The notes below the pieces were generated by a model. That model saw only the letters and a list, made by a program, of their open reading frames with translations. It searched no databases and was not told where the DNA came from. Below are positions 1-2,504 of a stretch of DNA of 29,211 nt, one piece after another (within the stretch, counting starts at the first letter, position 1; every line of letters begins with the position of its first letter). The translations under genes and the position numbers were made by a program. Origin of the DNA: a virus; IMG/VR virus record IMGVR_UViG_3300042509_000710, positions 1 to 29,211 of that record; one strand, written 5' to 3'.

Positions 1-826
1 CCTCGCCATATTCCGCAATGATCTGCTCATAGATTTGCTTGTCCGTGTCCTCGACCGTTCGAGAGTCAATGTTCTCCGTGTGCCAGAAGTTGCGCTTGGC
101 GTGGAAACATTCGTAGAAGTAGCCTTGATTGCGCCGGGGGTTACTAAACGCGAACCAGTACCGGTCTAAGATCGGTTCCGTAAAGAAGCCCGCACCGACC
201 GACCAGATGGCGTCCGGGATACCGCTGGCTTCGTCGAAGATCAGCATCATGCCGTCGTGGTTGTGAACACCCGCATAGCTGTCGGGGTTCTCTTCCGACC
301 ACAGCTTACCCTCGGCTGCCCAGTAGCGCGTACCTTTCTTCAAGTCGCGCTCGACCAGCTCGGTCAGCCACTTCGCTGGGATTAGCTTTGTTGCGCTGAT
401 CTCCCACCAGTGGCTGTTGATGATCATCGCTTGCCACTTAGTCAACTCACCCCATGTAACCGACCGGAGCTGGGCTTCTGAGTTGGCGGAGACGATCACA
501 CTCGACCCGATGCGGGTCGACAGCATCCACAAGACGAGCCAGCTAACGAGGGCGGACTTACCGATGCCTCGACCGGACGCGACTGCGGTGCGCAGGGCGT
601 CCATGTCGACCTGCCCTTTGTTCGTCTTGATGTGCGTGGCGATCCTGCGCAGTATCTTGCGCTGCCAGGTGCGCGGGCCTTTGAACTTAGCGAGCGGTGT
701 GTTGGGTTGCCCCCACGGAAAGGCGAACAGCACGAACGCCTCGGGGTCATCTGCGAGCTGTGGCGCCCACAGTCGTGTCATTAAGAGCTGCTCGCCCTCG
801 GCGTCATAAATGGGTTGCTGGGCCAT
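1..826 (-). CDS. Terminase large subunit, partial (C-terminal part lies outside the window)
   Basis: Phage DNA-packaging motor: the ATPase that drives DNA into the prohead and, through a C-terminal nuclease, cuts the concatemer. Reading the reverse strand gives 275 codons from an ATG at 826. A Walker A motif GRGIGKS lies at about residues 85-91 and a Walker B segment LIFDEAS at about 193-199, and the spacing and the WGELTKW and FSNPRRNQG segments fit terminase ATPase domains. The nuclease domain is beyond position 1. The start codon overlaps the stop of the upstream gene (TAATG), so the two are probably translationally coupled. The family call is firm; the exact terminase subfamily is not determined. 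Confidence 0.93.
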   Translation of the reverse strand, partial: MAQQPIYDAEGEQLLMTRLWAPQLADDPEAFVLFAFPWGQPNTPLAKFKGPRTWQRKILRRIATHIKTNKGQVDMDALRTAVASGRGIGKSALVSWLVLWMLSTRIGSSVIVSANSEAQLRSVTWGELTKWQAMIINSHWWEISATKLIPAKWLTELVERDLKKGTRYWAAEGKLWSEENPDSYAGVHNHDGMMLIFDEASGIPDAIWSVGAGFFTEPILDRYWFAFSNPRRNQGYFYECFHAKRNFWHTENIDSRTVEDTDKQIYEQIIAEYGE

Positions 827-1512
827 TATTTACCTTGCAGTCGCTTCAAGTCTTGCAGGTGGTCGGAGCCTATAAAGTACACGCCTTTAGGCTGCGACAG
901 CAGCCAGCGTTGGCGGTGTTCGTTAGCTTTGTTGGCCATCTGACGTGCGGGCGTGTCGTCAGCATCCCACATCTCTCGCTCACCCCGGTCTAAGAACGCC
1001 GCTACGTTTTCTTTTGACGCCGGGCGTTGGGCTTCTTGCAAAAACTCCGGCCCCATGTTTTGCAGAAAAGTCGCCAAGGTTTTGCTGTCAAACTTGCGGT
1101 CTTTGAAATACCCAAACTTGTCTTGGTTTTCCAAGATGCTGTCAAATATCGTCTTGTCGCTAGGCAGCACGTCTTTTTGCTTGTTTACGTCCGTGTTGGT
1201 AAACAGCGTAAACAGAAATTCTGACGGGTACCCTTTGACTGCTTTAGCGGCTGCGTCGTCCCACGACCCTTTGTACGCTACGCCCGGCAGCTTGTCGCCG
1301 CCCGTGCCTTCGTAGTACGCGCCGTGTTGCGCAGCTTCTGCTTTGATGCGAGCAGGCAGTGTCATGGGCTCACCATGCACTTGTCCGACAAAGGTTACGC
1401 CAGGGCGCGGCGAAAAGGTTTGTAGCGGCGTGGTGGGTGCGGTGTACGCGTCAGCGCCGACTGCTTGTCGCAGTACGTTAACCGGCGTGGGCGCGAGAGC
1501 GTTCTGTGGCAT
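826..1512 (-). CDS. Putative TIKI/TraB/ChaN-superfamily protein encoded between the two terminase genes
   Basis: 228 residues. What is seen: a GQVH tetrad at 43-46 after a hydrophobic strand (VTFV), a glutamate in YYEGTG at residue 68, and a second tetrad GSDH at 215-218 in the strand-like VYFIGSDHL close to the C terminus. Known pattern: TIKI-superfamily enzymes (TraB/PrgY, EreA, ChaN, the toxin PMT domain) carry a GxxH near the N terminus, a following Glu, and a C-terminal GxxH. ARQMANKANEHRQRWL just before the last strand resembles the helix that precedes it in TraB proteins. Inferred role: a metal-dependent hydrolase or haem-type binder; substrate unknown. It overlaps the small terminase gene by 35 bp and the large by 1 bp, so it is co-expressed with packaging. 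It has no signal peptide. It could instead be an unrelated packaging accessory protein. Confidence 0.6.
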   Translation of the reverse strand: MPQNALAPTPVNVLRQAVGADAYTAPTTPLQTFSPRPGVTFVGQVHGEPMTLPARIKAEAAQHGAYYEGTGGDKLPGVAYKGSWDDAAAKAVKGYPSEFLFTLFTNTDVNKQKDVLPSDKTIFDSILENQDKFGYFKDRKFDSKTLATFLQNMGPEFLQEAQRPASKENVAAFLDRGEREMWDADDTPARQMANKANEHRQRWLLSQPKGVYFIGSDHLQDLKRLQGK

Positions 1513-1930
1513 GTTCCAGATACTCCGGTTTCTGTTCCGTGATCAGCCCGTCGATGACGCGGGACTGCGCCTGTTGCAGCGCCTGGGTGATACTGATCTT
1601 GTTCGTGACGTCGACGCTGATCTCCTGACGCGCCGTCCAACCGTGGGCGTGCTGCAGGATCGCTAACGCCGCCTTGGCGTCACCATTACGGGCGGCGTCG
1701 TGCAGCAGCGCAGACGCCTCCAACTCGCCGTCAGCGCGCCCCTTCTGCTCAGCCATCGTCGCCACCGGATCCATCTCGCAGAGGTGCCGGTACTCCTGCG
1801 GCAACATGCCTGCAGCTAACGCCAGTGTGTCGCCCTTCAGTCCGAGCTTAGCTGCGTCGTAGATGGCCTGTAGGCGCGACTCCGTGGCCTCAAGTTTGCG
1901 AACCGTCAGCGGTAACGAATGTATGCCCAT
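1478..1930 (-). CDS. Terminase small subunit-like protein
   Basis: 150 residues. Small terminases recognise the packaging site and recruit the large subunit. The N-terminal part (about 15-55) is predicted helical with an HTH-like LGLKGDTLALAAGMLPQEY segment, as in small terminases of the phage helix-turn-helix type. The middle (about 68-95) contains ALLHDAARNGDAKAALAILQ followed by HGW, which I associate with small-terminase proteins. Position immediately upstream of the large terminase, with one gene between, supports the call. The ATG at 1930 has no clear Shine-Dalgarno sequence. It is the first gene of the leftward operon leaving the repeat-rich region 1931-2625, so its DNA target may be in that region. 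Confidence 0.75.
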   Translation of the reverse strand: MGIHSLPLTVRKLEATESRLQAIYDAAKLGLKGDTLALAAGMLPQEYRHLCEMDPVATMAEQKGRADGELEASALLHDAARNGDAKAALAILQHAHGWTARQEISVDVTNKISITQALQQAQSRVIDGLITEQKPEYLEHATERSRAHAG

Positions 1931-2025
1931 GGCGGCATGGTAATGGATTTTTTAAAAAAATAAAAAATTTTGTGCAAGACCTCCGTGGACGTGACCGTCC
2001 GGCCGCGGGCCCCCCACCCCCCCAG

Positions 2026-2141
2026 GTTAGTAAGCACTCACTCTTTTTGTTGTCAGCCTGATAAGTTAGTAAGCACTCACTAACTTTTGCCAGGTTAGTA
2101 AGCACTAACTAACTTGCCCAGGTTAGTAAGCACTAACTAAC
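2026..2141. repeat. Four copies of a palindromic 20-mer (operator, partition-type or packaging-site repeats)
   Basis: Copies start at 2026, 2065, 2094 and 2122. The last two are identical, GTTAGTAAGCACTAACTAAC. The second differs by one base (A to C at position 14), and the first has a degraded right half. Each copy has inverted 6-bp arms, GTTAGT and ACTAAC, around an 8-bp centre, as expected for a dimeric DNA-binding protein. Start-to-start spacings are 39, 29 and 28 bp. Three copies are preceded by CAG or CCAG. Candidates for the ligand are the small terminase (packaging site), a repressor or a replication initiator; the sequence does not decide. Confidence 0.85.
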
Positions 2142-2154
2142 CGATGTTTGCACA

Positions 2155-2504
2155 TGTGGACCATGCAAATTGTCCACACAAACCGGTGGCCGCGCGGACG
2201 TAAAAGTGTTAACAAAAAAGAATCGAATCTGTGGATAACTTTTTGCCGGACAAAATGTTGCCAAAAAGCTATGTGGACAATGTGGACAATCTACAGAGGC
2301 AAAAAAAATTGGTGGCGTGCGCGTGTGCGCACACGTGACCGTACAATCCATTAGCAGTATGATAACTATTTTAACTTCCTAAGGTTTGATAGATTTTATT
2401 GTCCACATTGTCCACAAATAGCCAAAAGCCGCACTGTCCCTCGAATGTGGCGTGGACAATCGCGCCGATTTTCATAGTCCACACTTTGACCCACGTAGTC
2501 CACA
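2155..2504. other. DnaA-box array, putative replication origin
   Basis: One perfect E. coli-type DnaA box, TTATCCACA, reads on the minus strand at 2230-2238. TTGTCCACA, a DnaA box form common in high-GC bacteria, occurs at 2170-2178, 2399-2407 and 2408-2416 on the plus strand and at 2272-2280 and 2281-2289 on the minus strand. Weaker relatives lie at 2155-2163, 2451-2459, 2475-2483 and 2496-2504. Two boxes abut head-to-tail at 2272-2289 and two more at 2399-2416 in the opposite orientation, enclosing an AT-rich segment (about 2341-2400) that could be the unwinding element. The phage encodes its own primase-helicase and polymerase but no recognised initiator here, so host DnaA or a protein mimicking it could start replication. 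The array could alternatively serve as iterons for a phage initiator or titrate DnaA. Confidence 0.7.
2322..2335. repeat. 14-bp perfect palindrome CGTGTGCGCACACG
   Basis: Perfect dyad of alternating pyrimidine and purine in the middle of the DnaA-box array, between the tandem minus-strand boxes and the AT-rich core. It is suited to binding a dimeric protein. No T-tract follows, so it is not a terminator. Confidence 0.7.

Follow-up and report, generated by a model that had tools for sequence, protein, structure and literature searches.

The window analysed here, which is the whole 29,211-base span of a virus record (positions 1 to 29,211) and comes from a freshwater phage, carries two terminase genes on its minus strand and, between the putative small terminase gene (TerS) and the rightward early genes, four 20-bp imperfect palindromes. 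The copies are scored below against a degenerate consensus for the binding site of SlmA, a host nucleoid-occlusion factor of the TetR family.

2..826, minus strand: N-terminal part of the terminase large subunit (TerL), extending past the window edge (phrog_2 and phrog_5902)
1478..1930, minus strand: putative small terminase, 150 aa, named from its position and general look, with no family match
2026..2045, no strand: SlmA-type site copy 1, with a decayed right arm, 16/20 against the degenerate SlmA-site consensus
2065..2084, no strand: SlmA-type site copy 2, 19/20 against the degenerate SlmA-site consensus
2094..2113, no strand: SlmA-type site copy 3, 18/20 against the degenerate SlmA-site consensus
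2122..2141, no strand: SlmA-type site copy 4, 18/20 against the degenerate SlmA-site consensus

A 228-aa gene without a family match occupies window positions 826-1512 (minus strand), between TerS and TerL. Its relative sits upstream of TerS in one related locus (L184), and the gene seems to be mobile.

The four palindromic 20-mers, first picked out in a sequence-only reading of this DNA, stand up to a background model. They start at 2026, 2065, 2094 and 2122, with spacings of 39, 29 and 28, and share a 13-mer, GTTAGTAAGCACT, that is absent elsewhere in the window. The 14-mer core AGTNAGYRCTNACT occurs four times in the window, always within the array, compared to 0.015 on average and at most 1 across 200 first-order Markov windows. 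In the copy at 2026 the right arm is degraded and reads ACTCTT in place of ACTAAC. The array does lie before the small terminase gene, as that reading had it, with 96 bp between the TerS start at 1930 and the closest copy. Its claim of regular spacing is true only roughly, as spacings among relatives peak at 23, 28-29 and 37-39.

A scan with TerS returned 180 related viral-contig stretches, 80 of which were retained, and loci added by a 17-mer scan brought the total with a TerS relative to 113. Across these 113 loci, every copy with at least 15 of 20 matches lay in the 1.5 kb preceding TerS. For the copy count, upstream regions that were identical or short were dropped, which left 83 of the 113 loci. 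These non-redundant regions hold 257 copies, with at least one in 75/83 and none in 8/83. Where an array is present it comprises 1 to 7 copies, and both copy number and spacing vary freely across the 83 upstream regions. In four loci (L048, L053, L057 and L184) an extra gene lies between the array and TerS, and the array is still upstream.

The pattern of variation within the unit bears on what recognizes it. The symmetric positions G5, T6, A15, C16 and T17 are invariant or nearly so, and positions 7 and 14 are variable. Of 87 distinct copies, 23 have a Watson-Crick pair between these two positions, fewer than the mean of 33 obtained by shuffling, and the pairs 7-14, 3-18 and 10-11 all pair more rarely than in shuffled copies. 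An RNA or DNA hairpin was rejected as the arms do not covary to keep pairing. With the symmetric positions fixed and positions 7 and 14 varying without pairing, the unit is a protein site rather than a hairpin, and the pairing counts support the earlier suggestion that these palindromes are dyad-symmetric, protein-binding sites.

The E. coli nucleoid-occlusion factor SlmA is reported to have a 12-bp site consensus, GTGAGTACTCAC (PMC3116907), and 20-bp SlmA-binding oligonucleotides have been described as SBScons and the natural sites SBS17 and SBS12 (PMC4423959). The family consensus of the window's relatives contains GTGAGTACTCAC. Scored with the degenerate consensus GTWAGTGAGYRCTCACTWAC, the window copies reach 16, 19, 18 and 18 of 20, and the natural E. 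coli sites reach 17/20 (SBS17) and 15/20 (SBS12). With SBScons alone as the reference, the window copies match at 14-16 of 20 positions, and with the strict core at 9-10 of 12. The array copies are 20-bp palindromes around GTGAGTACTCAC, which is how an SBS is recognized, and they share with the chromosomal SBS of E. coli and V. cholerae a 20-bp dyad-symmetric form with this core. The arrangement is different: the E. coli sites, about 50 in number, are described as dispersed outside the Ter macrodomain (PMC3116907), whereas in the phage several near-consensus copies crowd into a few hundred bp of its genome.

The same sites recur in many unrelated uncultured phages. Two SlmA-type cores 3-30 bases apart were found in at least 120 viral-contig stretches, compared to 1 and 0 stretches for control rearranged palindromes in the same pair search, and the exact SBScons 20-mer was found in 2 viral-contig stretches, compared to 0 for its scrambled form. 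Sixty-two of 104 new loci, falling into 15 groups, had no match to TerS, TerL, polymerase or primase of the window. In these loci the flanks that the search pattern left free read GTW once more (G in 122, T in 103 and A/T in 163 of 194 half-sites), and the best copies in other phages match SBScons at 19/20. All cores lie in one short cluster in 17 of 19 array-bearing contigs, the exceptions being G153, with 8 cores over 5.5 kb, and G162, with one core set apart.

A TerS profile built from 84 window-family sequences found no match in the 62 unrelated array loci at E values up to 10, and a search of 1074 ORFs from 13 phage contigs turned up nothing resembling E. coli SlmA. A shared host factor would be the simplest binder of the arrays. 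Judged by the match to its site, SlmA is probably that factor.

TerL was detected in 44 of the 62 loci, and in every one of these the array is positioned upstream of that gene. The figure is biased because the terminase queries came from ORFs near arrays (10 large ORFs, 6 of them TerL) and 18 of the 62 loci had no TerL match. The array is within 2.7 kb of TerL in 42 of those 44 loci, compared to 13 expected at a random position, and the array-upstream direction is held in six TerL groups plus the window family. This position may reflect a role in packaging or expression, or merely the location of the main noncoding stretch. An array was absent from all 21 named phages checked, among them T4, T5, T7, lambda, N4, P1 and three phages of Rhodoferax and Curvibacter. 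A lone site occurs in one of the 21, and the other 20 carry none. Named terminase relatives of other array phages likewise had no array among those searched. A literature search, with most subscription journals outside its coverage, did not turn up any account of SlmA sites carried by phages. A BLAST match to Pantoea phage TacPo2 was dismissed as chance, with no site in the 6 kb examined. One 128-kb contig (L254, 1097-6607) has 8 SlmA-type cores over 5.5 kb; in its group, the terminase of L280 shares about 49% identity with the terminases of large Vibrio phages (Demerecviridae), and T5 has no such core.

The sequence-only reading had offered two roles for the repeats, and neither is favored by these comparisons. 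One was a packaging-initiation site, pac or cosB-like, bound by the phage small terminase. The constant position of the array upstream of TerS and TerL is what such a site would show, and pac and cosB sites of tailed phages are likewise repeats adjoining the small terminase gene, those of lambda cosB having similar spacing. However, seven contigs (L014, L015, L016, L018, L021, L022 and L023) have no 20-mer despite TerS proteins 96-99% identical to that of the window, so that the repeats are absent in close relatives with a conserved terminase, an outcome the same reading had named as refuting its proposal. The array also occurs in the phages described above that have no match to the TerS profile; the sites are neither present wherever the same TerS is nor specific to its family, as they are found in loci without a detectable TerS relative. 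Unlike pac or cosB, the array has a sequence common to several TerL groups and is dispensable beside a near-identical TerS. A further element next to the array is the better packaging-site candidate, judging from its conservation.

1950..2023, minus strand: G-run, then CGGTCACG..ACGGAGG, then T-tract, lying between the array and TerS, from an alignment of 81 upstream regions

The alignment excludes the four loci in which another gene lies between the array and TerS (L048, L053, L057 and L184). The element is kept in relatives with TerS down to about 52% identity, and it is also present in array-less relatives. It could possibly be a cos or pac site, and its retention both with and without the array counts further against the repeats in that role, which we consider quite unlikely for them. 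In one unrelated array group, 11 of 16 loci have a window-like G-run on the terminase side of the array. Many contigs end just upstream of TerS; because those positions are scattered, contig ends were not used as packaging ends.

The other suggested role was that of operators for a repressor, the 50-aa HTH protein being the example given; an activator encoded by the phage was considered here as well. Dyad-symmetric sites within a divergent intergenic region are compatible with operators, and other palindromes hold the same place in relatives. The HTH gene, however, fails to co-occur with the array. Among 20 loci (13 array-bearing and 7 array-less, some of them uncovered), it was found only in the window, L002, L019 and the array-less L014, and it is missing from most array-bearing relatives examined, including ones with the early region covered (e.g., L004, L006, L011, L013 and L025). 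In addition, the unannotated gene families common to at least three phage groups, among the 1074 ORFs of the 13 contigs, look like tail fibre, polymerase and other common genes. An operator for a phage-encoded regulator is therefore a reading to which we give very little credence.

Beyond the array, toward the early genes, lie elements that raise the question of a replication origin.

2230..2238, minus strand: DnaA box TTATCCACA, found near TerS in relatives
2170..2178, plus strand: DnaA-box-like 9-mer TTGTCCACA, single, from the window repeat search
2272..2289, minus strand: two tandem TTGTCCACA 9-mers, from the window repeat search
2399..2416, plus strand: two tandem TTGTCCACA 9-mers, from the window repeat search

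If the array were part of an origin, it would act with the adjacent DnaA box and 9-mer repeats. One conserved DnaA box lies upstream of TerS in most loci: after those with a TerS start below 600 were dropped, 66 of 91 loci had TTATCCACA, and 69 copies lay in the 1.1 kb preceding TerS, compared to 2 elsewhere. The TTGTCCACA 9-mers beside the array point the same way. In unrelated phages this association is not kept, as TTATCCACA lies within 500 bp of the array in merely 3 of 62 loci, and the GC skew of the window has no sharp switch at the array. We view an origin function for the array as very unlikely. Window positions 2170-2416 hold five TTGTCCACA 9-mers in total plus one TTATCCACA DnaA box. 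By eye, the tandem 9-mers of relatives seem to covary (GCCAACAT, GCCCACAT, GCCCTCAT) with the DnaA box constant.

If SlmA binds the array, hosts of array-bearing phages should encode it. In a bacterial genome collection the exact 20-mer was found in 10 stretches, of which only L209 has several sites; the remaining nine have one site each and come from unrelated bacteria. L209 belongs to the window family; this phage contig has four cores and was binned with the MAG of an uncultured betaproteobacterium. The MAG encodes SlmA (273.7 bits, curated cut-off 120), as do 27 of 30 genomes of its family. A window-family contig without sites (L403; TerS 56% and TerL 64% identical to those of the window) is binned in another MAG, G253, which has no SlmA match at an E value of 1e-30 or better. 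It is no more than suggestive that array presence accompanies SlmA in these two bins, the binning of phage contigs being weak. All 26 SlmA loci examined have the same recognition helix, SEAALYRHF, so the site preference of SlmA should be conserved.

Chromosomes of SlmA-bearing relatives gave no enrichment of sites. In the family of the L209 MAG, GTGAGYRCTCAC was found at 5 sites in 29 genomes, compared to 29 sites in 30 genomes for a control palindrome, the L209 MAG being omitted from the 29 as its 3 sites are all on the phage contig. Among 60 of the 114 genomes of the class (22 of 23 SlmA-positive genomes and 38 of the 91 others), 8 sites were found in the 22 SlmA-positive and 11 in the 38 SlmA-negative genomes, and 1.2 Mb of one SlmA-positive genome was likewise not enriched. 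Since an E. coli positive control of 206 kb also gave no clear enrichment, with one site at 17/20, this test is insensitive and not decisive.

The array is conserved at one place in the genome, agrees in sequence with the SlmA site of E. coli and recurs across phage groups with no detectable terminase, polymerase or primase in common with that of the window. With roughly even confidence, we propose that the repeats form a multicopy SlmA-site array that moves host SlmA onto phage DNA and blocks division. According to this model, host SlmA would bind the array, and the multiplying phage DNA would, by extension from published E. coli work, draw SlmA off the nucleoid. On the phage DNA SlmA would become activated and would antagonize FtsZ assembly, as the same E. 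coli work suggests. The infected cell would then cease division without any phage protein, presumably to the benefit of the phage. Antagonism of FtsZ by site-bound SlmA is, in the accounts drawn on here, published for E. coli sites only. A precedent may be found in two plasmids built for laboratory use, p2SBSK and pUC-2xSBS, which carry SlmA sites in tandem at high copy number and are reported to inhibit Z-ring formation (PMC4117426, PMC3573117). A four-site phage replicating to many copies could act like these multicopy SBS plasmids, although the array is natural and carried on phage DNA, and its effect is a proposed one. The array would block host division during infection as FtsZ inhibitors of the lambda Kil type do, but those inhibitors are proteins, whereas the array consists of DNA sites acting via a host factor. 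Lambda Kil itself has reportedly been studied as a phage protein inhibitor of FtsZ.

That a host division block is the function for which the array was selected is a tentative proposal that we hold at somewhat less than even confidence. We are equally guarded about the broader idea that many unrelated phages independently gathered SlmA-site arrays, so that replicating phage DNA itself inhibits host division through relocation and activation of SlmA. A pure division-block role does not predict the location of the array upstream of TerL in every locus with TerL detected. That location would fit better if SlmA, or a host regulator of the same site, were a transcription factor timing the late (terminase) operon or the divergent early genes. 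SlmA is reported to activate the chb promoter in V. cholerae (PMC5519180), and an SBS within a promoter is reported to repress in E. coli (PMC3573117). However, in the window family >90 bp and a second conserved element separate the array from the start of TerS, its copy number and spacing are unconstrained, and close relatives manage without it, and we regard a transcriptional role as rather unlikely. SlmA together with FtsZ is also described as bringing SBS DNA to membranes (PMC7468209). Transcription activation and membrane recruitment of SBS DNA are rivals or additions to the division block.

If the division-block model is true, phages steer host cell division via binding sites with no protein made, in a DNA-only counterpart of phage FtsZ-inhibitor proteins. 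Such a trait would be common in uncultured phages and absent from the 21 named phages checked, and the presence of an array would predict slmA-bearing hosts.

Several smaller features of the same region were also observed. A TANNNT-like -10 element (window 1931-1945) nearly abuts the TerS start codon by eye in many relatives, and because it is so near, the TerS mRNA could be leaderless. A 16-bp variant, GTTAGTGACCACTAAC, stands alongside the 20-mers upstream of TerS in L054, L059, L068, L074 and others, and by eye it is similar to a portion of E. coli SBS17. Another palindrome family, the second seen here, reads GTGRAACAY..RTGTTYCAC and has 8 occurrences near TerS and 0 elsewhere. It replaces the array at about -183 from TerS in the seven contigs named above as having no 20-mer, and in L058 it is found at -243 from TerS together with the array. 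In MW202483 (L198, 4804-4957) the terminase operon is preceded by an array of a third, TGTTTACGTAAACA-like palindrome, and an annotated homing endonuclease gene separates the two.
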